From the NCBI RefSeq assembly GCF_900637055.1, contig NZ_LR134338.1:1994001-2058000 (forward strand): 64,000 bases of DNA. Reading direction: 5' to 3'. This document shows positions 2-55,102 of this stretch, in pieces. Below the pieces are notes generated by a model. That model did not search any database and was not told where the DNA came from. It saw only the letters and a list, made by a program, of their open reading frames with translations. Position numbers and translations under genes: made by a program. This DNA comes from Brevibacillus brevis (GTDB lineage Bacteria > Bacillota > Bacilli > Brevibacillales > Brevibacillaceae). Position 1 is the stretch's first letter. Every line of letters begins with the position of its first letter.

Positions 2-1850
2 GCTTGGATCGAACAAGCCATTCCTAAGGAAACCGAAGCTCCTGAATATGAACAGCATGTAGTGATGCTCTGCGAACTCGGTCATATTTCATGGGAAAGC
101 ATTTCATCTCAGATAAACGGTGCGAAATTCCTAGTGTTGCAATCCGATCAGCAAGGCATAGCGGAACGATTCCAAGCGTATGCTGTTCAGGCATTTGAAG
201 AAATAAAAGCCCTTCTTCAAGCAAAGCCAAAGGGGAAGGTCCTGATTCAGATCGTTACTCCTCTCCAATCGGAACAACGGCTGTTCGCTGGAATTGCGGG
301 TCTGTTGAAAACGGCACAGATCGAAAACCCGAAAGTAATCGGACAGTTAATCCAAATCGATTCAACCGGAGATTCAGCGGGATTGGCGGAGAAGCTGAAA
401 GCAAACAGTCTTTGCCCAACCGACAGCCAGATTCGCTATCAGTTCGGGAAAAGATATATGGCGGGATGGAGTGAAGTTGCAGTTCCACAGGATGAAGCAA
501 GCATGCCGTGGAAAGACAACGGGATTTACCTGATCACAGGCGGAGCAGGTGGCTTGGGACTTATTTTTGCCGAAGAAATGGCGGAGAAAGCCCGTGGCAT
601 CACCTTGATTCTGACGGGACGCTCTGAGCTGACTGAGGAGAAGCAAGCAAAGCTTCGCAAGCTTGCGGACAACGGGACCAGAGTCGAATATCGCCAAGTG
701 GATGTCACGCAGAAACAGGCCGTGGAGGATTTGATCCAAGGTATTCAATCCGAGTTTGGCGATCTTCACGGGATCATTCACAGTGCGGGCGTGACTCGCG
801 ACAACTTTATCCTGAAGAAAACCAAAGAAGAGGTACAAGCAGTTCTCGCGCCAAAGGTTGCGGGACTGATTCGTTTAGACGAAGCGACTAAGGGACTGAA
901 TCTGGATTTCTTTGTGCTCTTTTCTTCAGCGGCTGGTAGCTTGGGCAATATGGGCCAAGCAGATTATGCGACTGCCAACGCTTTTATGGATAACTACTCC
1001 GCTTACCGTAACGAACAAATCGCACGAGGCGAACGGCAGGGTCAGACCATCTCCATCAATTGGCCGCTGTGGAAAGAGGGCGGAATGCAGGTAGATGAAG
1101 AGACAGAAAAGAGATTGTGGGACGACCTTGGCATGGTGGCTATGCAGACGGCTTCGGGTATCAACTGCTTGTATCGGGGGTTAGCTTCGGGACAAGATCA
1201 GTTGATGGTCATGGAAGGTGATCTTGTACGAATGAAGCAAAGACTGATGGGGGCAACGGCAACCTCCTTGACCTCAACAGTTCATTCGAGCAGCTTGCAA
1301 AGCGAGGTTCAGGCGTCTTTGCTGAAAATGGTCGCTGAATTGCTCAAGGTTGATAGCGATGATATGGATATCCACGCTGAGCTCCATGAGTACGGCTTTG
1401 ACCAGATTAAGCTGACCGAATTTACAAACAAGCTGAATCAAGCCTATGAGCTTGAACTGACTCCCTCTGTATTGGTAGAGTACCCGACGCTTTTTGCTGT
1501 CTCGCAACACTTGATGGATGCATACCGGGATCGACTCATACAACAGTTCCAACCAGCAGAGAGCCCAAGTACCCCTGCAAAAATGGAGAAAGAACAGCTT
1601 GTTTCCGTTGGGCAACCAGATGTGCTTCGGGCAAAAGTAAGGGAGTATCTGAAAAAGGAAATTTCTGCTGTTCTCAAGCTCCCAGTTTATAAAATTGATG
1701 AGGATGCTCCGTTGGACAAATACGGGATCGATTCGGTCATGGCGATGCAATTGACCACTCAATTGGAAAAAGCATTCGGTTCACTGTCGAAAACGTTACT
1801 CTATGAATACCAAAACATTGGGGATTTGACAGACTATCTTTTTGCACATC
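2..1850 (+). other. PKS module remainder: KR-ACP*-ACP
   Basis: End of a module whose KS lies left of the window. The KR is complete with an RD residue pair at the position of the B-type LDD motif, predicting a beta-hydroxyl. The first ACP (about 1295-1530) has Gln at the phosphopantetheine position (near 1400); the second (about 1620-1860) has YGIDS. Confidence 0.85.
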
Positions 1851-4333
1851 ATCGAGACAAAATCATCGAGATCATGGGGGCTGGGAAAACCGCAGAGACA
1901 AGTACAGCAGTGAATGTTGCTAATGTACTGCCTACTTCTGCCTCCATCACAGACCATCGCCGTCGTTTCTCGCAGTTTGTTACGCGTGAACAGGCAAAGA
2001 AACAAACAACATCTGAGCTAGACATTGCCATTATTGGTGTTTCGGGTCGCTATCCGCAGGCTTCCCATATACAAGAGTTCTGGAACAATTTGCGGGAAGG
2101 CAAGGATTGCATTACAGAAATTCCGCAAGAGCGCTGGGATCACAGCTTGTATTTTGACGAGGCTCGGAACAGCCAAGGAAAAGCCTACAGCAAATGGGGC
2201 GGCTTCATTGACGGTGTCGATCAATTCGATCCGCTGTTCTTCCATATTTCTCCTCGGGAAGCGGAAATGATGGACCCTCAAGAACGCCTTTTCCTGGAAA
2301 CCGTGTGGAATCTGCTCGAAGAGGCAGGACACACGCGAGAGGTATTACAACGTCAATATGATAATCGAGTCGGCGTCTATGTAGGGGCGATGTATCAGCC
2401 GTATCACGCCTTTGATGCGGATATGGAAAAGGGCGCTATCATTTCCCTGTCTTCCTACCATTCGATTGCCAACCGAGTCTCTTACTTCTTTAATCTGCAA
2501 GGTCCAAGCATGGCGATTGATACAGCGTGTTCTTCATCTGCCATTGCCATTTATCATGCCTGCGAAAGCTTGATTAAGGGAGAAAGCTCGCTTGCTATCG
2601 CGGGTGGCGTGAATGTTTCGATTCATCCGAAGAAATACCTGGGCTTAAGTCAGGCCCAAATGATTGGAAGCCATGCGGACAGCAGAAGCTTTGGAGATGG
2701 AGACGGATATTTACCAGCAGAAGGCGTAGGCGCTGTACTATTGAAGCCTTTGGCCAAAGCGATGGAAGATGGAGATTCCATCTTAGCCGTCATCAAATCA
2801 GCTGCGACCAATCATGGCGGACGTACCAATGGGTTTTCCGTGCCTAATCCCCAAGCACAAGCGCAATTGATAGAAGAAAATTTTGCTAGAGCGGGCATTG
2901 ATCCCCGGACGATCAGTTATGTGGAAGCCGCCGCGAATGGTTCGCTGCTGGGAGATCCGATTGAGTTGAAGGCGTTAACGAATGCTTTTTCGAAGCAGAC
3001 GGACGATGTTCAGTTTTGTGCGATTGGGTCGGTGAAATCGAATATCGGTCACGCCGAGGCAGCTTCTGGTATTTCTCAGCTGACAAAGGTGATTTTGCAG
3101 CTACAGCATCAGGAGTTGGTTCCCTCTATAAAAGCGGAGCCGTTGAACCCGCATGTCAATTTTGCAGAAACGCCTTTTTATTTGCAAAAAGATCGACAAA
3201 AGTGGGATCGACCTGTGGTGAGAATCAATGGAGAAGAACGAGAGGTTCCACGCCGGGCGACGATCAGTTCGTTTGGAGCAGGCGGGTCAAATGTTCATTT
3301 GATTCTCGAAGAGTATATTCCGCCGCAGACAGAGATGAAATCCATTTCTTCTGCCACTTCACCTCAGATCGTGGTTTTCTCGGCAAAAAATACGGAGCGA
3401 TTGCGTGCCGTTGTCCAGCAGATGCTAGCATTTGCCAAGCAGCAAGCGTTTTCCTTGGCGGATTTTGCCTATACGCTTCAAGTGAAACGAGAAGCTATGG
3501 AATGCAGGCTGGCTATGGTGGTTCAAAATCGAGATGAACTGATTCATGGATTACAGGCGTATTTGGAAGCGGTCGAACAAGGCAGCGAGCCAACTGCATC
3601 GATTCCTATCTATACAGGAGATCTTGAAGAAGACCATGCAGGAGTGAGAAATCTTCTTTCAGGCAAAGTAGGAGATACCGTATTGCAGGTTCTTTTCGCA
3701 GAAAATAATCTGGAAAAGCTTGCCCTTCATTGGACGCAGGGAGGCAAAATTCCTTGGGAATCCTTGCATCCACAAGAGCGACGCACGCTATCTCTGCCTA
3801 CCTACCCTTTTGCCAGAGAACGCTATTGGCTCTCCACTTCCGAGGGTGAGCAGGCGCAGCTTGGATCTGAAGCGATCCGTCAACCTGTGGAAAAAGCGAC
3901 GTTAGCGATTGATATCGACCCGGACAGCCCAACAGAGGAAAACATTCTGCGTGATATGGCACAATTTATCTCACGGGAATTACACCTTTCTGAGGGGCAA
4001 ATCAAGATAAACAAATATTTCTTGGACTATGGCATGGATTCGATCATGGTTACCAAGTTGATTCGTCATTTAGAGCAGCGCTGGAACATCAAAATCAGAG
4101 GGCGGGAAGTGCTGGAGAACCCGACGATGAAGTCGTTGGCTCATCTACTGGCGATAAAAATAAAAGAGTGGAGTCATAAAGAGATCGCTTCCACTACAGA
4201 TTTCGAAACAATGTCTCCGGATAGCGGTGAACGGACAGAAAATCTCGCAGTCGATATGTTGCAGAAATTCAAAGAAGGCCTGCTAAGCTTAGAAGAGATC
4301 GAACAGTTAATCGACAAAGGAGGGATGATATGA
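2..4333 (+). CDS. Trans-AT polyketide synthase, 5'-partial: KR-ACP*-ACP-KS0-ACP-docking
   Basis: The reading frame is open to the left edge, and its first 20 codons match the start of the KR structural region found in other modules here, so the true start is upstream. 1443 residues are visible. Domains: KR about 20-415 (GGAGGLG NADPH loop; Lys, FSS Ser and QADY Tyr catalytic residues present); ACP-like 432-510 with GFDQ instead of GFDS, so no phosphopantetheine serine; a normal ACP 540-620 (YGIDS); KS 673-1105; a post-KS linker without AT; ACP 1310-1385 (YGMDS); and a C-terminal helical tail (KEGLLSLEEIEQL) resembling a four-helix-bundle docking domain. The KS keeps its cysteine (DTACSSS) and NIGH motif, but EAHGTGT has become EAAANGS, so it should pass the chain on without elongation. 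That fits its place before the NRPS module of the next protein. The stop codon overlaps the next start (ATGA). Confidence 0.95.
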   Translation, partial: AWIEQAIPKETEAPEYEQHVVMLCELGHISWESISSQINGAKFLVLQSDQQGIAERFQAYAVQAFEEIKALLQAKPKGKVLIQIVTPLQSEQRLFAGIAGLLKTAQIENPKVIGQLIQIDSTGDSAGLAEKLKANSLCPTDSQIRYQFGKRYMAGWSEVAVPQDEASMPWKDNGIYLITGGAGGLGLIFAEEMAEKARGITLILTGRSELTEEKQAKLRKLADNGTRVEYRQVDVTQKQAVEDLIQGIQSEFGDLHGIIHSAGVTRDNFILKKTKEEVQAVLAPKVAGLIRLDEATKGLNLDFFVLFSSAAGSLGNMGQADYATANAFMDNYSAYRNEQIARGERQGQTISINWPLWKEGGMQVDEETEKRLWDDLGMVAMQTASGINCLYRGLASGQDQLMVMEGDLVRMKQRLMGATATSLTSTVHSSSLQSEVQASLLKMVAELLKVDSDDMDIHAELHEYGFDQIKLTEFTNKLNQAYELELTPSVLVEYPTLFAVSQHLMDAYRDRLIQQFQPAESPSTPAKMEKEQLVSVGQPDVLRAKVREYLKKEISAVLKLPVYKIDEDAPLDKYGIDSVMAMQLTTQLEKAFGSLSKTLLYEYQNIGDLTDYLFAHHRDKIIEIMGAGKTAETSTAVNVANVLPTSASITDHRRRFSQFVTREQAKKQTTSELDIAIIGVSGRYPQASHIQEFWNNLREGKDCITEIPQERWDHSLYFDEARNSQGKAYSKWGGFIDGVDQFDPLFFHISPREAEMMDPQERLFLETVWNLLEEAGHTREVLQRQYDNRVGVYVGAMYQPYHAFDADMEKGAIISLSSYHSIANRVSYFFNLQGPSMAIDTACSSSAIAIYHACESLIKGESSLAIAGGVNVSIHPKKYLGLSQAQMIGSHADSRSFGDGDGYLPAEGVGAVLLKPLAKAMEDGDSILAVIKSAATNHGGRTNGFSVPNPQAQAQLIEENFARAGIDPRTISYVEAAANGSLLGDPIELKALTNAFSKQTDDVQFCAIGSVKSNIGHAEAASGISQLTKVILQLQHQELVPSIKAEPLNPHVNFAETPFYLQKDRQKWDRPVVRINGEEREVPRRATISSFGAGGSNVHLILEEYIPPQTEMKSISSATSPQIVVFSAKNTERLRAVVQQMLAFAKQQAFSLADFAYTLQVKREAMECRLAMVVQNRDELIHGLQAYLEAVEQGSEPTASIPIYTGDLEEDHAGVRNLLSGKVGDTVLQVLFAENNLEKLALHWTQGGKIPWESLHPQERRTLSLPTYPFARERYWLSTSEGEQAQLGSEAIRQPVEKATLAIDIDPDSPTEENILRDMAQFISRELHLSEGQIKINKYFLDYGMDSIMVTKLIRHLEQRWNIKIRGREVLENPTMKSLAHLLAIKIKEWSHKEIASTTDFETMSPDSGERTENLAVDMLQKFKEGLLSLEEIEQLIDKGGMI
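2014..4150 (+). other. PKS module: KS0-ACP (non-elongating)
   Basis: KS with the active Cys codon near 2528 but EAAANGS (about 2924-2944) in place of EAHGTGT. The missing His is needed for malonyl decarboxylation, so this module should only hand the chain to the downstream NRPS condensation domain. Confidence 0.85.
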
Positions 4334-7300
4334 TGCGACGGGAAATTCTCATGGCTTACAAAGAAGGTAAGCTGTCTGCTGTGGAAGTCCAAGAGAAGCT
4401 TCTGGAGCTGGAAAACCCATCGTTTACAAGTCCTCTGTCCATCGGGCAGCAGGGATTGTGGATGTTGCAAAAAATGTCTCCTACGATGAGTGCTTATAAT
4501 GTTCCGTTATGCTTTTGCATCCGCCAGAAATGGGACGTGGTCTTATTTAAACAGGCTTGCCACCTTGTACTTAAACAGCATCCGATTTTACAGAGTTCGA
4601 TTATGGAAAAGCATGGTGTTCCGTATCTGCTTCAACGCCTGGAGCAATCGCTTGCCATTGAGCAGGAGGACATCTCAAACCTAACGTCCCAGGATGTTTT
4701 GCCATATCTCAGGCAGAAAGTAAAAGAGCCCTTTTCATTGGAAAAGGGTTCTTTGCTTCGCATTCATCTATTGTCACGTTCGGAAGAAGAGCATTTTGTC
4801 CTGATTACGATCCATCATATGATATTTGACGGACATTCTTCCTTGCTATTACTACAAGCATTGGTCCATACATATATCGAGCTAGTTGAAGGAAAGCAGC
4901 CGAAAGCAACACCGGATTCAACCGTTTACGCTGACTTCGTAAAGTGGGAACAGGACATGATGGCGAGCCCGGAAGGTGGGGAACATCGTTCTTACTGGCT
5001 GGAGCAATTGTCAGGGACGCTACCGCAACTGGAGCTTCCTACTGATCGCCCGCGTTCTTCGGCACCAAGCTTTGAGGGGCAGGTTTTTACGCACGTATTT
5101 TCACGAGAATTGAGTCAACAGGTGAAGAAGCTCTCCAAGCATTACCGCATGAACCCATCTGTTCTCTTATTAGGGATATGTAAAGCCTTATTGTATCGCT
5201 ATACAGGTCAAACAGATGTGATTGTCGGCATGCCGACGATGGGACGTCCAGAAGAGAGATTCGATTCAGTAATCGGTTATTTTGTCAATATGATTCCCAT
5301 TCGCAGTCAGGTAACAGGAGAAAAGTCTTTCTCCCAGTTCATTCGAGAATTGCAGCTTACGCTGATTGACGGGATGGATCACGCTGTCTATCCTTTTCCA
5401 GCGATGGTTCGCGAGGCAAACATTCCTCGACTTCATGGAAATTCACCTGTATTCGATATCATCTTTACGTACCAAAATTTTCTGCAATCGCAAAATTTGC
5501 AGCGGTTTTATGATGAATGTCAAAACAAGCTTGCCATCGAATTAATTGAGGGTGTTCATCAAGAGGGTGAGTATGAATTTGAGTTAGAGGTGTTTGAGCA
5601 GGAAGCCGAGTTTGTATTGAATCTGAAATACAATCCGCACGTATTTGATCAAGCGACGATACAACGGATGGCAGAGCATTATCAAAATATCGCAAACGAA
5701 GTCATCAAAAATCCTGACATCGCTTTGGATGAGATACCACTTATTTCTGCTGAAGAAGGAAACATGCTGCTCGTTGAGTGGAATGCGACTGATGCGGCAT
5801 TCCCACAGGCTTTATGCATCCATGATTTGTTCGAGAAGCGAGTCCAACAAACACCAGATGCTGTGGCTGTTGTTTATGAAAAGCAGTCGTTGACCTACCG
5901 TGAACTGGATGAACGGATTACCAAGCTGGCGATCTATTTGCAGGCCAAGGGAGCAGTTCCTGAAGCTACAGTAGGGATTTGTGTCGAACGCTCCTTGGAA
6001 ATGGTCATCGGCATTTTAGGCATTCTGAAAGCTGGCGCAGCGTATGTTCCATTGGACCCAACCTATTCCACAGAGCGATTGGCATACATGGTGGAAGACA
6101 GCAAGATCACTTTGGTGCTTACGCAAGCTCGCCTTTTGGACAAGTTATCTTCAGCCGCAGGAGAAAATACGAAATGCATCGTGCTAGACAGGGATTGGGA
6201 AGAAGTTGAACAGACAGCCCAGCGACAAAAAACGCTCAACCGGATCGTAAATTCAACCCATCTAGCTTATGTGATTTATACATCCGGAAGCACAGGGAAA
6301 CCCAAAGGGGTCATGGTTAGTCATGAAAGTATCATCAACACCCTCTTTTTCCTTGAATCTCGTTATCCCGTTATGGAGAACGATGTTTATCTGCTGAAAA
6401 CCAACTATGTGTTTGATGTTTCTTTGTCCGAGCTGTTTGGTTGGTTCATTGGTAGAGGACATCTGGTCATTCTTCCGCCACATGGGGAGAAGTCACCAGA
6501 AATGTTAGCCGAATATATCGTGAAGCATCGCGTGACTCATGTCAATTTTGTTCCAGCGATGCTGAATGTCTTCGTCAACGGCGTTGAAGCGAATCAGCCA
6601 TTCTTGCAGCATTGTCCGCTAGAATATGTGATGGTTGCGGGTGAAGCCTTTCCAAAAGAGTTGGTGAAAAAGACGGTTGCTGCTTTTCCAAAGGCGAAGA
6701 TTGAAAATATTTACGGGCCAACAGAAGCTTCCATTTATGCAGCATGGTTTTCCTGCTCTGAAAATGAACTGGTCAGCAGCAATACACCGATTGGTAGACC
6801 TGTCGCAAATACGCAACTCTACATCGTTGATCGCCATATGAATCCCGTGCCAGTTGGGGTTCCAGGAGAGCTTTGCATTGCGGGAAAAGGCTTGGCTCGT
6901 GGGTACTTGAATCGCCCAGAGCTTACCGCAGAGAAGTTTGTAGATAACCCGTTTACACCCGGAACCAAGCTGTATAAAACAGGTGATGTAACACGTTGGC
7001 TGCCTGATGGAACGATTGAGTATTTAGGCCGAATCGATCATCAAGTAAAAATTCGAGGGTTTCGAATTGAATTGGGTGAGATCGAGAGCCAACTAATGGC
7101 TCATCCACAAATCCAAAGCGTTGTCGTGTTGGTGAAAGAAGAGGGAGATCATAAACGGTTGGTTGCGTATTATGTTCCGAAAGCAGGTGCGAACCACGAA
7201 CGGCTTGAGCCCTCAAAATTACGGGATTATTTGAGGAAGAATTTGCCAGAGTATATGCTCCCGGCATTTTTTGTTGCCATGGATAAAATCCCGTTAACCG

Positions 7301-10300
7301 CTAATGGAAAAGTGGATCGTACAGAGCTGCTGAATCAAAAGCTTGTGGTAACACAGCCGAAGAAACAGAGCCTCCCGCAATCTGATATTGAGCAAAGGAC
7401 CTTGAAAATTTGGCAGGATGTCCTGAATGTAGAGGGGATCAGTACAGAAGATGGCTTTTTCGATGTGGGCGGAGACTCGATTCTCGCTACTATGGTTGTC
7501 GCCAAAATGACGGAAGAGTTTCAGTGCGATCTAAATGTGACCACTCTATTTAAGTACGTCAATATTCGAGAGATTAGCGAATATATCGCAGCACGGAAAG
7601 AGAATGAATCGGATGAGCAAGCGGATTTTGCCAATCCGAGCCAGGCAACGTATAGTGAAGGACAAGTGGAGGAGACTTATCCTGAATACTATGAGGATAG
7701 CATCGCGATTATTGGAATCTCCTGCCACTTCCCGGGAGCGAAAAATCATAGAGAGTTTTGGGAGAATTTACGAAACGGCGTAGAAAGTGTACGTTTTTTT
7801 TCTGATGAGGAAATCGATCAATTACACCTGCCTGATGAATACTTGCAGAATCCGAACTTTATTCCGGTGCAGTCCACCATTGAAGGGAAGGATCACTTCG
7901 ATCCAGGATTTTTTCACCTTTCAGCCAGAGACGCAGAATTTATGGACCCGCAGTTTCGACTGCTATTGACCCATTCATGGAAAGCATTGGAGGATGCAGG
8001 GTATACACCGAAACAAGTACCGCAGACGGGTGTATTTATGTCGGCGAGCAATAGTTATTATCAAGCGCTCTTGCCGCATTTCACCAAGGAATCACCGAAT
8101 GTTATGAAAGACCCCAATGAATATGTCTCGTGGGTTTTGGCACAAGGTGGCACCATTCCCACGATGATTTCTCATAAAATGGGGCTGAAGGGACCGAGCT
8201 TTGCCGTCCATTCCAATTGTTCTTCCTCGCTGGTCGGATTGCATCTGGCTTATCGCAGCCTGCAATCGGGAGAATCGAAAGTGGCTTTAGTAGGGGGCGC
8301 AACTATTTTCCCTACGACTTATACAGGGTATATCTATCAAGCCGGATTGAACTTTTCCAGTGATGGTCACTGCAAGACGTTTGATGCGTCAGCAGACGGC
8401 ATGATCGGTGGAGAAGGAGTCGGCGTGGTTGTTCTCAAAAAAGCTTCCGATGCGATCAAGGACGGGGATCATATTTATGCCCTCATGAGAGGAATTCGCA
8501 TCAATAATGATGGGGCAGATAAAGTCGGATTTTATGCGCCAAGTATAAAAGGTCAGGCTGAGGTGATTCAGCAAGTATTAGATGACACCAAGGTTCATCC
8601 TGAAACGATCAGCTATATCGAAGCGCATGGAACGGGCACTTATTTAGGCGATCCGATAGAATTTGCGGCGCTCAATGAAGTGTATACAAGATACACCTCC
8701 AACAAACAGTACTGCGGACTTGGATCGGTGAAAACCAATATTGGACATCTCGATACAGCTGCAGGGTTAGCAGGTTGCATTAAAGTAGCATTAAGCTTAT
8801 ACCATAATGAAATTCCTCCATCGTTAAACTATGAAAAGCCGAATCCGAATATCAATTTGGATCAATCGCCGTTTTATGTGGTTGATACGCTCAAAAAATG
8901 GGAGGACGCACCTGTTCCCCACAGAGCGGCGTTAAGTTCATTTGGTCTTGGCGGGACGAATGCCCATGCCATTTTTGAACAATGGAAGGTTGGGGCAGAA
9001 GCTAAGCGTGTCAGCGTGAGCGATGATAACAGCCATCACGTTTATTTCGTGCCGTTATCAGCTCAAAAAGATGATCGAGTCCTGGCGTATGCCCAGCAAC
9101 TCGTTGATTTCCTGAGCAACAATCATGAACGAGTCCATATAGCAGATTTGGCCTATACTCTCCAAGTGGGAAGAGAACCGATGGAGAGCAGGGCTATTTT
9201 TATTGTCAAAGATACAGCGGAACTCATTCAAAAGCTGAGTGACTTTTTGAGCGGAGAGGAACAAACAGCAGGTAGCTTTAGAGGAAACGTAAAACAAGCA
9301 AACCATGAAGTCTCCCAATTGAAAAAGAATGGGACGAATCGTGAGCTATTTACCAAGCTGTTTGCAGAAGGCAAAGGAGAAAAAGCAGCCGAGTTGTGGA
9401 GCAAGGGTCTGGATATCGAGTGGGAGGTCCTGTACAACGATGCTAAACCGCGTCGTATCAGCCTGCCTACCTATCCTTTTGCGGAGGAGTCCTATGGGGT
9501 TCCTGAGATGCATACGAAAATGAACATGAATGTATACACGGAGTCGGGAGCGGCTTCTGTACAGATTTCGCCAATCCCTTCAACAACTCCAACGCCAGAA
9601 ACGCTTCTTCTCCAACCGTGCTGGAACGAGCAGGAGATCAGCCAAAAAGCTGGTTCACCTGCTTTTGCAGAGCATCTCGTGATCCTTTGTGAATGGGCAG
9701 AGGAATTCAGAGAGCGTATCAAATCCGAAATGAACGGAGTGCGCTGCCTGGTCCTACAACCACAATCACAGCAGGAAAATATAGCAGAACGGTTCCAAGC
9801 CTACACGGTCCAGGTATTCACGGAAATCCGGCGAATCCTTGCCAATAAACCAAAAGGAAAAGTTCTGCTTCAGCTTGTTGTGCCTGACAAAGAGGAACAG
9901 CGATGCTTCTCCGCTCTCTCAGGTTTGCTGAAAACGGCGCAATTGGAGAATCCCAAGCTGATTGGACAGCTTATTGAAGTCCAAGCAGAGGACAATCCAG
10001 CGGAATTGGTTCATAAGCTGCAGCAAAACAGCACCGATGAGAAAAATAAGCATATTCGTTATCGGGATGGCAAGCGATGGGTGAGCGGCTGGAAAGGGAT
10101 GGAATCCTCTCAGCCAGCGGAGCATGTATGGAAAGATGAAGGCATTTATCTGATTACTGGCGGTGCTGGCGGATTAGGCTTGATTTTTGCCAAGGAAATC
10201 GCACAGAGAACTGTGGGAGCGACTGTGATTATCACGGGTCGTTCTCCCTTGGATGAAGAAAAGACAGCCAAATGCAGCGAATTAAAAGCACGGGGAGCCA

Positions 10301-37181: not shown

Positions 37182-38600
37182 GCCGAAGGAGTGCCTAGGA
37201 TGAACAAAATGGACGAGCTTCTCTTAAAGTTACTGTGGGGTCAAATGCAGTCGCTCGGCTGCTTTACGGAAAAGAATCAAGCGCTCAGCGATCTCAAAAG
37301 ACAAGGCGGTCTGCTTGACTTATATGACATGTGGCTCGAAGAAACGGCTTCTGTTTTGGCCCGGAATGATTATCTCGTTTACGATAGCGCAACATCTACC
37401 GTGATCGATACTGCTCCCGTTTCTAGTGCTGCTGCCTGGCAGGAATGGGAGCAAGAAAAAGAAGTCTGGCTAAAAATTGCGGATACGAATGCGCAAGTCA
37501 AGCTAGTCGAGGCAACCCTGCGTGCTTTACCACAAATTCTCACTGGAAAAGTGCGGGCCACGGAGGTCATCTTTCCCAATTCGTCGATGGCATTAGTCGA
37601 GAAGGTCTACAAAAATAACACGGTCTCCGACTACTTCAATGAAGTGCTTGCTGATACAGTGGTTGCTTTTGTTGAGGAACGGCTGAACCAAGATTCTGCG
37701 GCCCGAATTCGCATTCTCGAGATTGGTGCAGGTACGGGAGGAACGAGTGCCGTCGTTTTCCAAAAAATAAAGGCGTATCAAGAGCATATCCAGGAATATT
37801 GCTACACTGACCTCTCCAAAGCCTTTTTCATGCATGCAGAAAAAGAGTATGGCCCAAGCAATCCTTATTTGACCTATCAGATTTTTAACGTAGAAGAGCC
37901 GTTGACGGGACAAGGAATTGATCTTGGCGGCTATGATATTGTCATTGCAGCAAATGTCCTGCACGCCACCAAAAATATTCGCCAGACCGTACGTAATGCG
38001 AAAGCCGTTCTAAAGAAGAACGGCTTGCTTCTTCTAAATGAAATGAGTAAAAACACCCTCTTCCTCCATCTTACCTTTGGTTTGCTGGAGGGATGGTGGC
38101 TGTACGAAGACCCAGAGCTGCGCCTTTCAGGCTGCCCTGGGTTATCTTCGTCAACGTGGCAGAGAGTATTGGAGGAAGAAGGGTTTCAGTCGGTCTTTTT
38201 CCCGACAGAAGAGGCGCACGCGATGGGACAGCAGATTATTGTTACCGAAAGCGACGGCGTGATCCGCCAACAGCAAATAAAACAGCCTAAACCTAAGCCG
38301 AGCGTACATGCTGAACAATCAAAAGCAAAGAGAGTGGAAATACCTTCCGCTCCTGAAGGAAGGGCAATCCAGGATGTACTGCGCGAAAAAAGTACGGAAT
38401 ACATCAAACAGCTGATCGCTGAAACGCTAAAAATGCCGAGTAACCGATTGGATGCCTCCGAACCTTTAGAGGCATATGGTATGGATTCCATTTTATCTGT
38501 ACAACTGATCAATCAATTTCGGAAAATTTTCGGCGAAACCATCAGCGGTACTTTGTTGTTTGAATATCAGACGGTAGAGGACTTAGTCGAGCATTTACTA
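32683..38600 (+). other. PKS module split over two proteins: KS-DH0-KR-ACP* / cMT-ACP
   Basis: KS intact (DTACSSS, EAHGTGT, NIGH). The DH has DPLGNG for DHxxxG and HPSLLES for HPxxLDS, so both catalytic residues are gone. KR intact (SNYASGC). The first protein ends in a GFDP pseudo-ACP; the cMT and real ACP are on the next protein. Predicts an alpha-methyl, beta-hydroxy unit. Confidence 0.82.
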
Positions 38601-44561: not shown

Positions 44562-44615
44562 TGCATTCATCTCTAAGAAAGGCAACAGAATCAACATGTG
44601 GGAAGGAGCAATCCG

Positions 44616-47600: not shown

Positions 47601-50600
47601 AAAGCCTATGATGATGAAAATAAATATGAGGCCGATTTCAACATTACCAGCTGGAACAGCAGTTATACGGGTCAGCCTCTTTTCGCGGAAGAAATGCGTG
47701 AATGGGTCAATTCGACGGTGGATCGTATCCTTGCCTTGCAGCCGAAAAAGGTACTCGAAATCGGGTGCGGTACAGGGCTGTTACTATCTCGAATTGCGCC
47801 TCATTGTGAACAATATTGGGGAACGGATTTTTCGTCGATGGCGTTGGATTATATTACGGAGAAACTGATCAACCAAAGAGAGGATTTATCCAATGTAACA
47901 CTGCGTAAGAGCTATGCGGATGATTTTAGTGGACTAAAGGGACAGAAGTTCGATGTGATCGTGCTCAACTCTGTGGTGCAGTATTTCCCGGATGCGACCT
48001 ACCTGCTGGATGTGCTGAAAAAGGCCATACACGCCTTGAATGACAAAGGAGCAATCTTTGTCGGGGATGTTCGTAATCTTTCTTTACTGCAAACCTTCCT
48101 TACTGAGGTTGAGATGGAAAAGTCACCGGCTACGCTGACCGCCGATCAATTGCAGCGTCGCGTACAGAAGCGAATGAGACAAGAGCAGGAGCTGGTTATC
48201 GATCCTGCATTTTTCTATGCACTTCAAGCGCAGCTGCATCAAATCAGCCATGTAGAAATCAAGTTGAAGCGTGGAAGTCATCATAACGAATTAACCCGAT
48301 ATCGCTATGACGTGGTTCTTCATCTCGGCAAAAAAGTGCAGACGATTGAGGATTTTTCATGGCTGGATTGGCAGGAGGAGGGCTTCCAAAATATTGAGGG
48401 ACTTCGTCAAATCATGACCAAGTATAAACCGCAAATCTTAGGGCTTACGAATATCCCTAATTTGCGGTTGGACAAGGCGAATCGATACCAGTCGTTGCTT
48501 GCTGACAGAGATGTTCTCAAAACCAAAACCGTGGAAGAACTGAGAACAGATCAGAACCATGCAGGCACTGGAATAGACCCGGAGGAGCTTTGGAAGTTGG
48601 GTGCTGAGCTTCGATACAGCGTGGATATCACTTGGATGGGTGATAGACAGGATGGCAACTATGAAGCTGTGCTCCGATCTGAGCATTTACTAGAAAAAAG
48701 ACAGCGTAACACAGTGGTCACCGCGTGGCACCGTCCAGCGAAAAACTACCAGCCGATTGAAACGTATGCGAACGATCCTTTGACAGATAGAGTTGCTCGC
48801 CAGTTCATTCCAGAGCTGCGCAGTTATTTGCGGGATAAGCTGCCAGATTACATGGTTCCGTCTATCTTTGAGTTTATCAAGGAAATGCCAGTGAACATGA
48901 ATGGAAAATTGGATCGAAAAGCGCTTCCTACGCCGCTTATGGAAGTGCCAGAGATGGAAGGAGATTTTGTACCGCCAACGACGGAGACGGAAAAAATTCT
49001 TGCCGATGTCTGGGCTGAGATATTGGGCTTGGATAAGGTTGGCATACATAATAACTTCTTCGGATTGGGCGGCGACTCCATTCATACTATTCGAGTGGTT
49101 GCGAGGGCAAAACAACTCGGTTTGGAAATGACTCCTCAGCAAATTTTCCAATTCCAGACCATCGCTGATCTGGCAGAGGTTGTAGGTGGGGTTTCCACCC
49201 AAAGTGCGAAGCGAACGGCAACAGCAGTAGAGTTACCAACTCTTGATAAGCATCTGCTGGATCGGATAAAAGCAGACAACCCATACATGGAGGATGTTTA
49301 TCCGCTGACGATCATGCAAGAGAATATGCTTTATCGATACAAACATCATCCAGAGCCTGGTTTGAATGTGGTTCATCATGCTTTTCGCATCGAGGGTGGC
49401 CCTTTCCATGTATCTGCTTTTGAGCAAGCATGGCAGCATCTCATCCAACAATTCCCTGCCTTGCGAACATCCTTCATCACGGAAGAGCTGGATGAACCGA
49501 TGCAGATCGTGCATGAGAAAGTGGATATCCACATCAAACAGGAAGATTGGCGTGGCATTCCGGAAGAAAATCAACATGAACAATTGCAATCCTATATTCA
49601 AAAGCTTAGACAACAAGGATTTGTGATGGGCCAAGCACCCCATGCGCATCTTGCTCTGCTTCAAGTAGGAGAGGATGTGTACTACTTTATTTATGTCTTC
49701 AACCTGATGTTGCAGGATGGCTGGAGCTATACGTTGATCGTTAAGAGACTATTCGAATATTATCAAGCGTTTTCCCAAGGGAAGGCAATTGATATTGTGC
49801 CTGTATATCCTTATCGGGATTATGTTGCGCTACAAAAACAGCAGGACTTAGCGAATGCTGAGTTGTTTTGGAAGAAAAATCTGAAAGGAATGACCAGCTC
49901 CACTCTTGAATGGGCGCAAGCGAGCCGGAAGAATATTTCTGCCGAGGAGCCTCCCTATTCTCAAGAAAGGTTCATCGTATCGCCAGAAGTCTCCTCGGCG
50001 CTGTTATCTTTGTCGAAGAAGTATCATCTGACGCCATATACATTGGTACAAGGGGCTTGGGCATTGCTGCTCCATCATTACAGCGGCAAGGAAGACGTTG
50101 TATTTGGTACGATCTTCTCTGGCCGCAGCATAGCGATGATGGAGGTCGAACATTCTGTCGGGCTTTTCTTCAATATTCTGCCCATTCGCGTGAGCATCGA
50201 GCAAAACATGAGGTTCTTGTCTTGGCTCCAAAACATGCAGTCCAAGGTAGTAGAGACGAGTCAGTACGAATACACACCGCTGAAAAAAATATACGAGTGG
50301 TGCGATATCCCACGAGATCGGCTTTTATTTGACAGTTATCTGGTCAGCGAACAGCTCCCTGATTTCTCTTCCGTGTTTAGAGGATTTAATGATGTCCTCG
50401 GCGCTACCATCTATGATTCTATCGCGCAGACGGAGCATCCATTACGAGTGGAAATCCTTTTCTATGAACAAGTGCTGGTTCTGCATATCAACTACTATCG
50501 ACGTTTTTTCAACGATAAGGAGATTAGCAGTATGCTGCAGCACTTGAACACTCTTTTAGAAGGATTGGTAGCGAATCCAGAGCAAAAGGTAAGCGAGTTA

Positions 50601-50633: not shown

Positions 50634-50659
50634 ATTTGCGAACAAGAGGAGAGGTTACT

Positions 50660-52477
50660 ATGTGTGGAATCGTGGGATGGCTTGATTGGGATGACGATTT
50701 GTCATCCCAGCATGCTATTTTGCAGAAAATGGCTCAAGCGATCCAACATCGCGGGCCAGACGAAGAAGGATATTGGTTGTCTCCCCGGGCAGCGATTGCG
50801 CATCGGCGCCTGATCGTAATCGACCCGGAAGGCGGCAAACAGCCAATGATCTACCGAGAAGGAGATCAGACGTGTGTCTTATCGTTTAACGGCGAAATCT
50901 ACAATTATTTGGAACTGCGCCGCCAGTTAGAGATGCTTGGACATTCCTTTCAAACCAACTCTGACACAGAAGTATTACTGCACGCTTTTTTGGAATGGAG
51001 AGAGGAATGTGTCCGCCATCTCAATGGAATTTTTGCATTCGCCATTTGGGACGAAAAAAATCATCGATTGTTTTTAGCGCGTGACCACTTAGGTGTAAAA
51101 CCATTGTTTTATTGTCAACGAGGGAGCTCGTTCTTGTTCGGCTCCGAACTGAAAGCCTTGCTTGCCCATCCAAAAGTGAAGCCTGAAGTAGAAGCGGATG
51201 GGTTAGCAGATATTATCGGACTCGGTCCGGCGAGAACGCCTGGATTTGGCATTTTCCGCAATGTAAATGAGGTTCGAGCTGGACATTGTGTAACAGTCAC
51301 GAAGGATCAAATCAGGACAAGGCCATACTGGAAACTGGAAAGTAAAGCGCATACCGATGATATGGATACAACGACAGAAAGGATACGCGCTCTGTTACAA
51401 GACACGGTACAACGTCAGTTAATCTCTGACTTGCCATTGGTGAGTATGCTGTCTGGCGGCTTGGACTCTAGTGGCTTGGTGGCTTTAGCCGCTGAAGAGC
51501 TTCGTAAAAAAGGGAAGACGCTGCAAACCTATTCGGTTGATTTTGTTGACAATGATCAGCATTTTGAAGAAGGATTACTGCACATTAGCTTGGATGCGCC
51601 ATGGGCGAAATCAGTTTCAGAGCATGTACAAACGAAGCATCAAGAGATTACCTTCAACGCCCAAGATTTGATTTCTCATTTTCATATGCCGTTGAGAGCA
51701 CGTGATCTCCCGGGATTAGGGGAGACGGATACCTCGCTCTATTTGTTCTGCCGGGAAATGAAGAAAAAAGCGACCGTTTCGCTATCAGGTGAATCGGCAG
51801 ACGAAGTATTTAATGGGTATCCTTGGTTTCAGAAAGAGAAATTCTTGAATTCAGGCAAATTTCCTTGGATGGAGCATGACGGGTGGAGTTCATTTTTAAA
51901 TGAAGAAGCCATCGAAAAGATTCGCCCACAAGAATATCTTCGCAGGCGGTATGAAGAAGGGATTGCAGAGGTACACCCTTTGGAAGGGGAGACAGTTTTG
52001 GAAGCTCAACAGCGCAAAATGTCGTACCTCTTTATCACACGCTTTCTTCCATTGCTATTGGATCGCAAGGATCGAATGAGCATGTATACGGGGTTTGAAG
52101 TGCGTGTTCCGTATTGTGATTACCGTCTGGTTGAATATTTATGGAATGTTCCATGGAAAGTAAAAAATATTGATCAAATCGAAAAAGGCTTGCTTCGCAG
52201 AGCGTACAAAGGATATTTGCCGCATGAAGTATTGTACCGCAACAAAAGCGCATATCCGATGACCTATCATCCGGAGTATTACCATGCGATTTTGGACCAT
52301 ATGAAACAAATTTTAGCGAATCCGAATGCGCCTCTAGTACCATTGATTAATAAGTCTGTGATCCAATTTGTGCTGGATGGCAAAGCACCTATGAATCTCG
52401 CTCAATCAACGAAGCTGATCGAATACCTCGTTCAGATAAATATGTGGTTAGAGGAATACAAGATTTCCATTCGATAG
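50660..52477 (+). CDS. Asparagine-synthetase-like glutamine amidotransferase
   Basis: Begins MCGIVGW. The start is fixed by the need for Cys2 as the N-terminal nucleophile and by GAGGAG 8 bases upstream of ATG 50660. 605 residues. The N-terminal class II glutaminase domain shows Cys2, HRGPD and FNGEIYN. The C-terminal ATP-pyrophosphatase domain shows LSGGLDSSG and SGESADEVFNGY. The family frees ammonia from glutamine and uses it to amidate an AMP-activated carboxylate. It starts only 26 bases after the NRPS stop and so belongs to the biosynthetic operon. It is more likely a tailoring enzyme making a carboxamide, as its relatives do in several polyketide pathways, than a housekeeping asparagine synthetase. 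Which carboxylate it amidates cannot be read from the sequence. A strong terminator follows. Confidence 0.9.
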   Translation: MCGIVGWLDWDDDLSSQHAILQKMAQAIQHRGPDEEGYWLSPRAAIAHRRLIVIDPEGGKQPMIYREGDQTCVLSFNGEIYNYLELRRQLEMLGHSFQTNSDTEVLLHAFLEWREECVRHLNGIFAFAIWDEKNHRLFLARDHLGVKPLFYCQRGSSFLFGSELKALLAHPKVKPEVEADGLADIIGLGPARTPGFGIFRNVNEVRAGHCVTVTKDQIRTRPYWKLESKAHTDDMDTTTERIRALLQDTVQRQLISDLPLVSMLSGGLDSSGLVALAAEELRKKGKTLQTYSVDFVDNDQHFEEGLLHISLDAPWAKSVSEHVQTKHQEITFNAQDLISHFHMPLRARDLPGLGETDTSLYLFCREMKKKATVSLSGESADEVFNGYPWFQKEKFLNSGKFPWMEHDGWSSFLNEEAIEKIRPQEYLRRRYEEGIAEVHPLEGETVLEAQQRKMSYLFITRFLPLLLDRKDRMSMYTGFEVRVPYCDYRLVEYLWNVPWKVKNIDQIEKGLLRRAYKGYLPHEVLYRNKSAYPMTYHPEYYHAILDHMKQILANPNAPLVPLINKSVIQFVLDGKAPMNLAQSTKLIEYLVQINMWLEEYKISIR

Positions 52478-52504
52478 AAGCCCATGGATTTGCTGATAAA
52501 AAGG

Positions 52505-52535
52505 ACAGTCAGGATGTTTTTTCCTGACTGTTTTT
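52505..52535 (+). terminator. Rho-independent terminator after the amidotransferase gene
   Basis: A perfect 10-bp stem ACAGTCAGGA / TCCTGACTGT with a 7-base loop, followed by T5 and a T-rich tail. It separates the synthetase operon from the acyltransferase and P450 genes, so these may be expressed at a lower level or separately. Confidence 0.85.
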
Positions 52536-52570
52536 CTTTCAAAAATTGTAGTTGAAGGGGTGTGTAGGAA

Positions 52571-53887
52571 ATGAATGTCAGTGAGGTAAATCAGAACAGG
52601 GCAATTCCACAAAGACTGCCTGCTAATGGAAGTGACAGGTTTAATTACATGGTCAGCTATCTTTCCGATTGCCAACTTCAAATGGTTTTGGAAATGGACG
52701 GACATGTGAATCAACAGCGATTGCTTCAAGCGATGGAGGCAAGCACCGTTGCTGAACCGATCATTGGCTGCCGCTTTATGAAAGATTCAGTCCGCCCCTA
52801 TTGGGAGCGACGCAGCGATTTGGCGTCAAGCGGTTGGTGTTCCTTGCAACTTCTCAGTGAGTCTGATTCCGAAGAGAAAGCCATACAGGATTGGCTGTCG
52901 AGCCCAATAGACATCGATGCTGATGCGATGGTCAAAGTTCGCATACTGCGGACCTCGACCAAAGATATCATATGCATCAAATTGAATCATCTATGCAGTG
53001 ATGGTGCGGGGTTGATAGAGTATGTTCACTTGTTAGCTTCGTTATATAGTGAGCTTGCCAAAAACCCTCGCTACGTTCCCAAGTCAAACCCTGAGGGCAG
53101 GGATCAGAGCCGTTTGTTCAAGGAGATGGATATCCCAAATGGCGGGATGCCGCAAGCTCCAGAACCCCAGGGACCAACGCTTCCTTTTACGCCTGGAGAA
53201 CCAGCTAAAAGGAGACATGCCATTCGCAGAATACCGCGCGAAGAGTGGAGGGAGCTGGCGCAAGGATTTAAACAAAAAGGATTCACCGTAAATGATGTGT
53301 TATTGGCTGCCTACATGCGAGCTTTATATCAACAAATGGAGAATGTTCCGGCTGAGCAAATCAAAGTTATGGTGACTGTCAATGTAAGAAAATTCTTGCC
53401 CACGGGCAAGGCAGACGCCATTTACAACCTGTCTGGCGTTGTTCACGCCTCCATGAATCAAGCAGCAGGGACATTTGCAGATCAGGTGAAAGAAGTAGCC
53501 GGATTCATGAAGAATCAACGCGATAATAAAGAGATTCTGCATGATGCGGTAAACACTTTTGTCTTTGTGGAAAACTTAGAGTTTCATCACACATTGAAGA
53601 TCATACAGGATGTAAGAAAACAAATTGTAGAAAATGGAAAAAGCACGCCAATACTATCAAATTTTGGTATGATTAGTACGAGCCAGATAACATTCGATGA
53701 TGTGAATGTCGCAGGTGCGTATATCGTCTCTCCAGCCTATTACGCACCAGGACTGATGCTTGGAGTCAGTACGTATCAAGATTGCATGACCCTCAACATT
53801 TCCTTCTATGAATCGAATACAGACGTTGAGTTGATAGAAAAACTCCTGGATACCATGCTAGAGGAAATCAAGTCATACCGAGAGTAG
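52571..53887 (+). CDS. Stand-alone condensation-domain-like acyltransferase
   Basis: 438 residues with the fold signature of the condensation / CoA-dependent acyltransferase superfamily. NHLCSDG near residue 138 corresponds to HHxxxDG, keeping the second (catalytic) His and the DG. There is no attached A, carrier or TE domain. Relatives of this type move an acyl group from a carrier protein or CoA to a free alcohol or amine, and in some trans-AT pathways they release the finished chain. Here it could esterify a hydroxyl of the product or carry out release, which the terminal domain of the last synthetase may not be able to do. GAAGGGG lies about 10 bases before the ATG. It follows a terminator but stays on the same strand as the cluster, so readthrough or its own promoter is needed. 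Confidence 0.8.
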   Translation: MNVSEVNQNRAIPQRLPANGSDRFNYMVSYLSDCQLQMVLEMDGHVNQQRLLQAMEASTVAEPIIGCRFMKDSVRPYWERRSDLASSGWCSLQLLSESDSEEKAIQDWLSSPIDIDADAMVKVRILRTSTKDIICIKLNHLCSDGAGLIEYVHLLASLYSELAKNPRYVPKSNPEGRDQSRLFKEMDIPNGGMPQAPEPQGPTLPFTPGEPAKRRHAIRRIPREEWRELAQGFKQKGFTVNDVLLAAYMRALYQQMENVPAEQIKVMVTVNVRKFLPTGKADAIYNLSGVVHASMNQAAGTFADQVKEVAGFMKNQRDNKEILHDAVNTFVFVENLEFHHTLKIIQDVRKQIVENGKSTPILSNFGMISTSQITFDDVNVAGAYIVSPAYYAPGLMLGVSTYQDCMTLNISFYESNTDVELIEKLLDTMLEEIKSYRE

Positions 53888-53935
53888 TAGCATTTTGCAG
53901 CAATTACCCACCCATTTAGATAAGGAGTGAATGAA

Positions 53936-55102
53936 ATGAATAAAGTAGTTTTCCCTAATGAAATATCGGGTGCCGAGAATCTGCAACAACAGTTTGAACC
54001 CTACGGCTGGTATGCAGAAATGAGAAAAAATAGCCCAGTCCATTACGATGAAAAGCAACAGGTTTGGAATGTATTTCTGTATTCGGATGTAGAGCGAGTG
54101 CTGACCGATTATCACCTTTTTTCAAGCGATACAGGCAAACGAATCGCTGGTTCCCTCGCATTGAAAGAAAAGGGCATCACAGAGATGGACCCGCCTGATC
54201 ACGGAAAAAGGAGAGCGCTCTATACAAAGGCATTCTCAACCAGAACACTCCAGGAGTGGGAGCCGCGTATTCAAGAAATTTCACGGCATTTGCTAGAGGA
54301 AGTAAAAGAAAAGCAAAGCATCAGAATTTTAGGTGATCTCGCAACCCCGATGCCGGTGATTGTCATAGCCGATTTGCTTGGTGTACCGTCCAGTGATTGG
54401 ATGCTGTTCAAGCAATGGTCCGATGTTCTCATCGCTTCCGGGACCCGTGAAACGTATGAGGATATTAACCTCAAAAAGGAAGAAATTATGAAGGAAATGG
54501 CCGTTTATCTCTCTCCTATTATTCAAGAAAAAAGAGAGAACCCGAAAAAAGATTTCCTTTCCGATTTAACGCAAACAGAATATAAAGGCCAAAAACTATC
54601 TGACCGCGAGATTATTGATATTGCAATCAGCTTGCTGCTTGCCGGCAATGTAACGACAAGTACGCTCTTGTTCAGTGTTTTCTACTGCTTTTTACTGGAT
54701 CGACCAGGCGTATATCGTGAATTAAGAGAGAATCCGCAGCTGGTAGATCAAGCGATCGAGGAAGTATTGCGCTTCCGTCCGCCAGCACAGGTCTTGATGC
54801 GCAAGGTTCAAGAAGATACGGATATGTTCGGAAGTCTGATGAAAAAAGGCGAAATCGTCATGGCATGGCTCGGTTCTGCCAATCGTGATGAAAATACCTT
54901 TGCACAGGGAGATCAATTCGATATCCATCGACCGAATAGCAATAAGCATTTGTCATTTGGAAAAGGCTGCCACTTATGCCTGGGCGCACCATTATCCAGA
55001 CTGGAAGCAAAGGTAATGCTAACAGAAATGATTAAGTGCTATTCTGACATCTCAATCGGTGGATTTGATAACGATCTGATCCTCAATGTAACGAGAGGCT
55101 AA
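53936..55102 (+). CDS. Cytochrome P450, probable tailoring oxidase
   Basis: ATG 53936 is placed 8 bases after AAGGAG; a GTG at 53927 is in frame but overlaps the site. 388 residues, a normal soluble bacterial P450 length. Visible motifs: I-helix AGNVTT, ExxR in EEVLRF followed by RPP, and the heme loop FGKGCHLCLG with the thiolate Cys. The usual acidic residue of the I-helix (AGxE/DT) is Val, which may alter proton delivery. It needs a ferredoxin or flavodoxin partner, not encoded nearby. Last gene of the cluster, 48 bases after the acyltransferase gene and directly before a strong terminator. The probable role is hydroxylation or epoxidation of the polyketide; the site is unknown. Confidence 0.9.
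   Translation: MNKVVFPNEISGAENLQQQFEPYGWYAEMRKNSPVHYDEKQQVWNVFLYSDVERVLTDYHLFSSDTGKRIAGSLALKEKGITEMDPPDHGKRRALYTKAFSTRTLQEWEPRIQEISRHLLEEVKEKQSIRILGDLATPMPVIVIADLLGVPSSDWMLFKQWSDVLIASGTRETYEDINLKKEEIMKEMAVYLSPIIQEKRENPKKDFLSDLTQTEYKGQKLSDREIIDIAISLLLAGNVTTSTLLFSVFYCFLLDRPGVYRELRENPQLVDQAIEEVLRFRPPAQVLMRKVQEDTDMFGSLMKKGEIVMAWLGSANRDENTFAQGDQFDIHRPNSNKHLSFGKGCHLCLGAPLSRLEAKVMLTEMIKCYSDISIGGFDNDLILNVTRG

Follow-up and report, generated by a model that had tools for sequence, protein, structure and literature searches.

The DNA that we analyzed is a window of 64,000 nucleotides from Brevibacillus brevis (positions 1994001-2058000 of NZ_LR134338.1, one contig of 6.73 Mb) and carries the 3' part of a complete trans-acyltransferase (trans-AT) assembly line in which polyketide synthase (PKS) and nonribosomal peptide synthetase (NRPS) modules are combined. 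Ten of its 14 ketosynthase (KS) domains lie in the window, whose edge cuts the 3981-aa protein O2, and the start of the line is found some 16-22 kb further upstream; 40 kb of upstream DNA were added to read the whole cluster. From its 5' end, the cluster consists of a phosphopantetheinyl transferase (PPTase)-like gene (279 aa; family matches under cut-offs), a protein with two acyltransferase (AT) domains and a PfaD-type enoylreductase (ER; 1085 aa), an alpha/beta hydrolase (266 aa), a stand-alone methyltransferase (278 aa), and the megasynthases O1-O6 (2747, 3981, 7172, 3786, 2456, and 2011 aa), followed by an asparagine-synthetase-like amidotransferase, a condensation-like acyltransferase, and a cytochrome P450. 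The first four of these genes and KS1-KS4 lie upstream of the window; within it, the five giant open reading frames from O2 to O6 and three further ones (the amidotransferase frame at 50636-52477 and the last two of Table 1) are open and co-directional. The LysR regulator, formimidoylglutamase, and glutamate symporter genes downstream look unrelated to the cluster. An earlier note on this window had described a trans-AT PKS/NRPS line at positions 2-55102, and the line is real, with open reading frames, domains above cut-offs, and modules lacking AT domains, although these coordinates truncate it because the start of O2 and four KSs lie upstream.

All 14 KSs were found with a hidden Markov model (HMM) built from six of the line's own KSs, and a Pfam search of the genome gives the same 14 places. 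The KS, dehydratase (DH), ketoreductase (KR), methyltransferase (MT), acyl carrier protein (ACP), condensation (C), and adenylation (A) domains score above curated cut-offs with the exception of a degenerate MT in module 11. No match to the AT family was found in 20 scanned pieces, which cover every inter-KS segment except the 45-aa tail of O3 (19/20); the free-standing AT of the cluster is the upstream AT-AT-ER protein, which is 93-94% identical in 5/5 relatives whose contig covers it, and AT-less modules served by such a protein are what places the line among trans-AT PKSs. KS5 (EAAANG), KS10 (EANGSG), and KS13 (EASAYG) lack the histidine of the HGTG motif in each of 7/7 species and are therefore probably non-elongating. 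Full-length matches to the block KS13-O-methyltransferase (O-MT)-ACP-ACP came from 7 Brevibacillus and from no other of the 398 Bacilli genomes searched, with the two best candidates of each genome scored; other matches cover the KS part alone.

The cluster as a whole is conserved in the genus, since 12/12 tested genes have counterparts with 88-99% identity in 6 further Brevibacillus genomes, which is far beyond chance, and this orphan assembly line is thus kept in at least seven Brevibacillus species. The contig of one relative starts inside the hydrolase gene, with the hydrolase partial and the AT not seen there, and this genome was left out of the AT comparison and of the motif and selection analyses of the hydrolase.

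Table 1. Domain composition and window positions of the assembly line and its 3' tailoring genes.
Feature	Position	Strand	Remarks
O1	upstream of window		ACP-ACP-KS1-MT-ACP-KS2-DH-KR
O2, 3981 aa	start L002:12388		MT-ACP-KS3-DH-ACP-KS4-DH-KR-psiACP-ACP-KS5-ACP
O2, 3' part	2..4333	+	KR4, pseudo-ACP, ACP, KS5, ACP
Serine-less ACP-like fold	1316-1516		O2 aa 2977-3043
KS5	2024-3349	+	EAAANG replaces EAHGTG, 7/7 species; probably non-elongating
O3, 7172 aa	4330..25848	+	C-A(Ala)-PCP-KS6-KR-ACP-KS7-DH-KR-pseudoACP-ACP-KS8-DH-KR-ACP-KS9-KR-ACP-KS10(KS0); PCP, peptidyl carrier protein
A domain 1	5830..7311	+	code DVSNMAIIY (predicted alanine), 9/9 identical to bacillaene BaeN A domain
KS6	7702..9018	+	probably aminoacyl-accepting; with bacillaene KSs after Gly and Ala modules, 100/100
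KS7	11323..12666	+	near-identical to solved structure 4z37
Serine-less ACP-like fold	15475-15675		O3 aa 3716-3782
KS10	24469..25710	+	KS0 of dehydrating bimodule, partner DH at O4 start; EANGSG 7/7
O4, 3786 aa	25821..37181	+	DH-ACP-KS11-pseudoACP-DH-KR-MT(degenerate)-ACP-KS12-DH(degenerate)-KR-pseudoACP
Serine-less ACP-like fold	28659-28814		O4 aa 947-998
Degenerate C-methyltransferase, module 11	31686..32165	+	partial sub-cut-off Pfam matches, altered motifs
Degenerate DH12	34506..35345	+	Asp->Glu 7/7; would leave hydroxyl for O-methylation
Serine-less ACP-like fold	36921-37121		O4 aa 3701-3767
O5, 2456 aa	37191..44561	+	MT-ACP-KS13(KS0)-O-MT-ACP-ACP-KS14-ACP
O-methyltransferase domain	40758..41510 (approximate bounds)	+	Pfam Methyltransf_12/CMAS/Methyltransf_2; Methyltransf_12 match 40851-41138
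O6, 2011 aa	44598..50633	+	C-A(Ser)-nMT-PCP-C(terminal, His-less); nMT, N-methyltransferase
A domain 2	46185..47588	+	code DVWHISLID (predicted serine)
N-methyltransferase domain, between A domain 2 and PCP	47685..48197 (approximate bounds)	+	motif VLEIGCGTG
Terminal condensation-like domain	49290..50600	+	HHxxxDG -> NLMLQDG
Asparagine-synthetase-like amidotransferase	50660..52477	+	TIGR01536 516.7 bits vs cut-off 267.1; starts MCGIVG
Free-standing condensation/WS-DGAT-like acyltransferase	52571..53887	+	motif NHLCSDG, second His kept
Cytochrome P450	53927..55102	+	PF00067 144 bits; heme motif

The gene cluster itself is not new. Among PDB chains, 7zma (with 7zm9/7zmc) closely matches the KS3-DH-ACP-KS4 stretch of O2 (1497 residues, 3195 bits), and 4z37 differs little from KS7 across 448 residues (1015 bits). 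We take 7zma to be the "bimodule core" of Tittes 2022, and both 4z37 and 7zma presumably derive from B. brevis. Tittes 2022 is cited in PMC11907408, and Aleti et al. 2015 (PMC4397504) had listed a cluster of B. brevis NBRC 100599 as an uncharacterised novel polyketide with KS = 14, cMT = 3, oMT = 1, nMT = 1, KR = 8, and ACP = 20. The KS, cMT, oMT, nMT, and KR counts and the Ala and Ser A domains are the same here, while our ACP count is 23 (4 of them without serine) rather than 20; the two are likened by domain counts and not by whole sequence, and PMC4397504 reports no product for it. We likewise found no product among the matches listed in the open-licence literature. The earlier note had been unable to match the predicted combination to a compound, and this stands insofar as no close cluster with an established product turned up in the searches made, while the cluster itself had already been listed as an orphan and PDB chains match pieces of it. 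The line is conserved across Brevibacillus species yet without a product in the literature searched, although PDB chains closely resemble parts of it.

The two amino acid units of the chain can be read from the A domain codes. The first code is that of BaeN in 9/9 positions, which incorporates alanine (PMC4397504), so that the "amino acid X" of the earlier note is predicted to be alanine; an earlier lean toward glycine, based on likeness to LgrA2, was dropped since the code is that of the bacillaene alanine module and not of its glycine domain (DILQLGMIW). The second code lies in a module with an N-methyltransferase domain and matches what we take to be the serine consensus, and the end unit is accordingly read from its domains as a predicted N-methylserine. 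The A domains of the B. brevis cluster were independently called ala and ser in PMC4397504.

To compare the predicted intermediates with KS clades, we built a maximum-likelihood tree of our 14 KSs and 14 KSs of bacillaene synthase, using as reference the cluster of one Bacilli genome, to which the HMMs applied to our line were also applied to obtain the domain order. Over their main matches, three of the reference proteins share 91-94% identity with a B. velezensis record. KS6 groups with the bacillaene KSs that follow Gly and Ala modules (100/100), KS10 with the two C-terminal KS0s of dehydrating bimodules (100/100), KS11 with KSs that follow such bimodules (100/100), KS3 and KS12 with the KS after a DH-KR-MT module (100/100), and KS4, KS8, and KS9 with one KS after a DH-KR module (100/99). 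Modules 7, 8, 9/10, and 11 have their DH and KR motifs (DH11 with Asn or Lys for the motif Gly), and together with these clades KS8, KS9, KS11, and KS12 fit the roughly four double bonds that had been proposed. Domain order, motifs, and KS clades together are the basis of the predicted assembly steps, with the hydroxyl and beta-keto steps read from domain order.

Several observations weigh against reading the chain this way. Module 3 (O2, L002:14032-17004) is KS-DH-ACP without a KR, yet KS4 falls into the olefin clade, such that co-linearity fails at this point and a KR located elsewhere may be at work. KS12 falls into the alpha-methyl clade despite the dead-looking MT of module 11. KS7 pairs only with KS13 (89/98), KS1, KS2, and KS14 get no resolved place, and KS13 forms a long branch, as do two bacillaene KSs. 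The clades come from a single reference cluster, three other bacillaene KSs after DH-KR modules sit in a different clade so that clade and chemistry are not one-to-one, and a warning from the tree program concerns the long KS6 and KS10 groups, whose joining at the base may be false. We drew no conclusion from the places of KS1, KS2, KS14, KS7, KS13, b13, and b14. The clades fit the predicted amino acid and tetraene; KS4, upstream of the window, mismatches co-linearity, KS12 in the window has the alpha-methyl placement described above, and KS13 and KS14 have no assigned clade.

Selection on individual domains was estimated as the ratio of nonsynonymous to synonymous changes (dN/dS; Nei-Gojobori, custom script) from six comparisons, or five for the hydrolase. 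The active-looking domains tested in O4, O5, and O6 range from 0.04 to 0.16 (KS11 0.056, KS12 0.062, KR12 0.131, DH10 0.146, DH11 0.159, O-MT 0.037), and DH12 and the MT of module 11 stand at 0.343 and 0.356, respectively. The catalytic Asp of DH12 is Glu throughout the seven species; on the other side, its His->Pro change is confined to the B. brevis genome, the His being kept in the other 6/7, which speaks against loss of this domain. With DH12 degenerate, module 12 should leave a hydroxyl beside an alpha-methyl group, and the O-MT after KS13 should turn it into the methoxy group. Four ACP-like folds lack the carrier serine in 7/7 species (GFDQ, GFNQ, GVDL, and GFDP instead), with dN/dS of 0.20-0.61 in the three that were tested; one of the four is placed between KS11 and the KS11 linker. 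Domain order and motifs likewise agree with the remaining chain elements of the earlier note, namely the hydroxyl, the alpha-methyl/beta-methoxy unit, the beta-ketone, and N-methylserine, and its amidotransferase, acyltransferase-like protein, and P450 are supported by family matches and motifs, which leaves its interpretation partly supported overall.

What makes this line worth testing is its release domain. No thioesterase domain was found in the scanned assembly line. The terminal C domain of O6 reads NLMLQDG for HHxxxDG in 7/7 Brevibacillus, with both catalytic histidines lost, and the first C domain of the same protein keeps HHIIIDG. We reject the reading of a dead and decaying domain because purifying selection on it is strong: its dN/dS of 0.077 resembles the values of the neighbouring C (0.059) and A (0.082) domains and is far from those of DH12, the module 11 MT, and the pseudo-ACPs. 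The domain is present at 93-96% identity in named loci of B. porteri, B. formosus, and B. fortis, and at E<=1e-95 the 7 Brevibacillus are its sole carriers among 398 Bacilli genomes (the four best candidates of each scored). Across 398 evenly sampled Bacillota genomes, with the two best candidates of each scored, one match beyond the genome itself appeared, in G671, a genome of another class, which at E<=1e-95 is also the only one among 46 genomes of its class. On contig 36 of G671 (L051:7711-13854, minus strand), a 2048-aa frame is 60% identical to O6 over 2008 residues and has the same order C-A(Ser)-nMT-PCP-C, with FNLMLQDGWS shared and a terminal C domain that is 54% identical; the contig also encodes a hydrolase 49% identical to that of Brevibacillus, a different methyltransferase, and a KS-DH protein. 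The motif, the constraint, and the recurrence in G671 make this look like a conserved release cassette rather than decay.

Which chemistry this cassette performs can be approached by analogy to oxazolomycin-type lines. Like ozm and laj, our line is a trans-AT PKS/NRPS with a polyene and a terminal NRPS, and O6 shows the trait of that family of a terminal serine module C-A-MT-PCP-C without thioesterase. The domain order of OzmL is presumably C-A-MT-PCP-C as well. Laj10 ends such a line, likely takes Ser or Thr, and has 2004 aa (PMC10831120) compared with 2011 aa for O6, a likeness by published size and not by sequence. OzmM has tandem AT domains (PMC5764310). On this basis we infer a ring-forming release of the N-methylserine unit that would give either a tetramate or an oxazolomycin-like spiro-beta-lactone/gamma-lactam, which are isomers such that mass alone cannot separate them. 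A beta-lactone is reported to react with a cysteine probe (PMC12297239), whereas a tetramate would not be expected to. It weighs against the analogy that it draws on published size and product for OzmL. Four stretches of plasmid records (two Streptomyces, one Nostoc, one Eleftheria), which are among the matches listed in a search for OzmL-like proteins, contain related KSs, and no Ser-nMT-PCP-C end was seen in them. The lines also differ in that the cluster here has no formyl-glycine or oxazole loading, neither a formyl-glycine loading NRPS nor an oxazole cyclase being present, in that the methoxy group would come from an O-MT instead of methoxymalonyl-ACP genes, and in the amidotransferase and the P450, the latter absent from the ozm cluster.

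Alternatively, the alpha/beta hydrolase could act as an external thioesterase that releases a linear N-methylserine acid, with the terminal C domain as a scaffold, an outcome that we regard as rather unlikely. Its nucleophile motif GHSMGG is kept in the 6 genomes compared (L002:2510-3310; family matches under cut-offs), and in G671 the 49% identical hydrolase occurs near the same release module with no close relative of the starter methyltransferase found in that genome (the methyltransferase on its contig is unrelated), so that the hydrolase may serve release and not ester cleavage; these observations count against our preferred assignment of the hydrolase. However, the hydrolase gene lies immediately ahead of the methyltransferase gene, with an overlap between the two, an arrangement in keeping with the methylesterase role described in PMC8302727. 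The terminal C domain, moreover, is under constraint as strong as that on catalytic domains.

The X domain of glycopeptide synthetases is a C-like domain that recruits P450s, and the terminal C domain might similarly serve to bring in the P450 or the acyltransferase without any release catalysis of its own. Loss of both catalytic histidines under sequence constraint would fit such a role, as would the P450 and the C-like acyltransferase that follow in the cluster. However, none of the 11 distinct PDB sequences that match the domain at E<=1e-20 is named a glycopeptide X domain, and a scan of six more proteins from the G671 contig, which is cut at both ends, found no P450; we consider this explanation unlikely. 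The P450 itself has AGNVTTS where the acid-alcohol pair of the I-helix is expected (window 53927-55102).

At the other end of the line, no A or formyl domain was found upstream of O3, and the line begins with ACP-ACP-KS. The stand-alone methyltransferase at the 5' end of the cluster gives one match per genome in 7/7 Brevibacillus genomes (E<=1e-20), 96-99% identical in the 6 relatives; the copy of B. formosus NRRL NRS-863 is 99% identical, the single match, and in the same place. Malonyl-ACP O-methyltransferases start polyketides as methyl esters, which a BioH-like esterase cleaves at a later stage, and an assay showed methylation of malonyl-ACP by Brf335 of B. formosus DSM 9885 (PMC8302727). 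Our methyltransferase and Brf335 are candidates for being the same gene, the identity having been measured on the NRRL NRS-863 copy and the assay done on DSM 9885. By analogy, a malonyl methyl ester is the probable starter of the chain, and the hydrolase beside the methyltransferase would be the starter esterase. The unspecified "acyl" part of the earlier note is thereby sharpened to four upstream KS modules acting on this probable starter.

The nucleophile Cys of the amidotransferase is kept (MCGIVG, 7/7), and because the gene is one of five above the asparagine-synthetase cut-off in the genome, it is probably not the housekeeping copy; at the starter end, the ester would be turned into an acid and the acid into an amide. 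It is possible, if doubtful, that the enzyme acts instead on the serine end to give a serinamide or on the early malonyl starter. On-line starter transamidation has been proposed for glutarimide compounds (PMC8302727), and the amidotransferase gene lies at the far 3' end adjoining the release module; on the other hand, a starter methyltransferase would seem pointless if malonyl were amidated first.

Taken together, the best explanation, and one that we consider likely, is an orphan line that makes an alanine/tetraene/methoxy/N-methylserine chain, with a putative ring-forming release. Malonyl on the first ACPs would be converted to its methyl ester by the stand-alone methyltransferase, as its assayed homologue suggests, and four PKS modules would build an alpha-methyl-beta-keto, methylated diene or triene acyl chain before alanine is added. 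KR6 would then leave a hydroxyl, modules 7, 8, 9/10, and 11 would produce the tetraene, module 12 would leave the alpha-methyl-beta-hydroxyl that is methylated by the O-MT after KS13, and module 14 would leave a beta-ketone before addition of N-methylserine. The His-less terminal C domain, possibly together with the alpha/beta hydrolase, would catalyze or host closure of the resulting N-(beta-ketoacyl)-N-methyl-seryl thioester to a five-membered N-heterocycle. The starter ester may become an acid or amide via the hydrolase or the amidotransferase, the C-like acyltransferase may acylate a hydroxyl, and the P450 would oxidize. Before acylation or oxidation and with module 3 giving an olefin, the cyclized core would be C36H48N2O10 as the acid ([M+H]+ 669.338) or C36H49N3O9 as the amide (668.354), and the prediction thus supplies exact masses and a UV signature by which to recognize the product. 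A further expected ion is m/z 683.354, and we estimate the tetraene chromophore to absorb at about 300-320 nm. This is a real, complete, and conserved orphan line whose chain the earlier note predicted well, and its testable point of interest is the His-less release domain. As a tentative extension, that domain could be a distinct offloading domain, tied to N-methylserine modules and an alpha/beta hydrolase and common to two Firmicute classes, which closes N-(beta-ketoacyl)-N-methylserine thioesters to a tetramate or spiro-beta-lactone/gamma-lactam, such that Brevibacillus would make an oxazolomycin-like warhead on an amide-ended alanyl tetraene. If the domain does make the ring, it would show a chain exit without thioesterase, and the same question could then be put to oxazolomycin-type lines.

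The closest comparison for the elongating modules is bacillaene synthase (bae/pksX), which shares module types, several KS clades, a split DH-KR//MT-ACP module, a dehydrating bimodule, and the alanine module with its identical A code and matching KS clade. In contrast to bacillaene, our line has no N-terminal NRPS loading module and has the O-MT block, the N-methylserine module, and the terminal C domain; no beta-branching gene of the hydroxymethylglutaryl-CoA synthase (HMGS) type, as in bacillaene, was found among the genes between the PPTase and the P450. Surveys report "aurantinin-like" clusters in Brevibacillus whose products were not detected (PMC10753013) or list "aurantinin" clusters there (PMC12654256), and these similarity labels, from antiSMASH, seem to refer to this cluster. 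It would have in common with aurantinin synthase (art) the trans-AT logic and probable methyl-ester initiation, including a stand-alone malonyl-ACP O-methyltransferase and BioH-like esterase that resemble the gene pair here (Art28/Art9, set beside it by description). However, two A domains, the N-methylserine module, and the tetraene order do not fit, and PMC8302727, in its passages on aurantinin, proposes a succinyl-started second chain, which is not seen here, and mentions HMGS in its pathway legend. Both aurantinin itself and a polycycle resembling it are therefore disfavored on domain order and highly improbable as the product.

Outside the cluster, a weakly AgrB-like gene (L001:15281-15823; 47.9 bits, under cut-off) lies ~2.5 kb before the PPTase-like gene. 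Further PKS/KS genes with 10 of the genome's 31 KS matches are located 0.6-0.8 Mb downstream (G000:C1:2642736-2863195), and another genome of the family has a KS-containing match with three in-frame TGA codons that is perhaps a decayed PKS (G034:C1:934239-936089).

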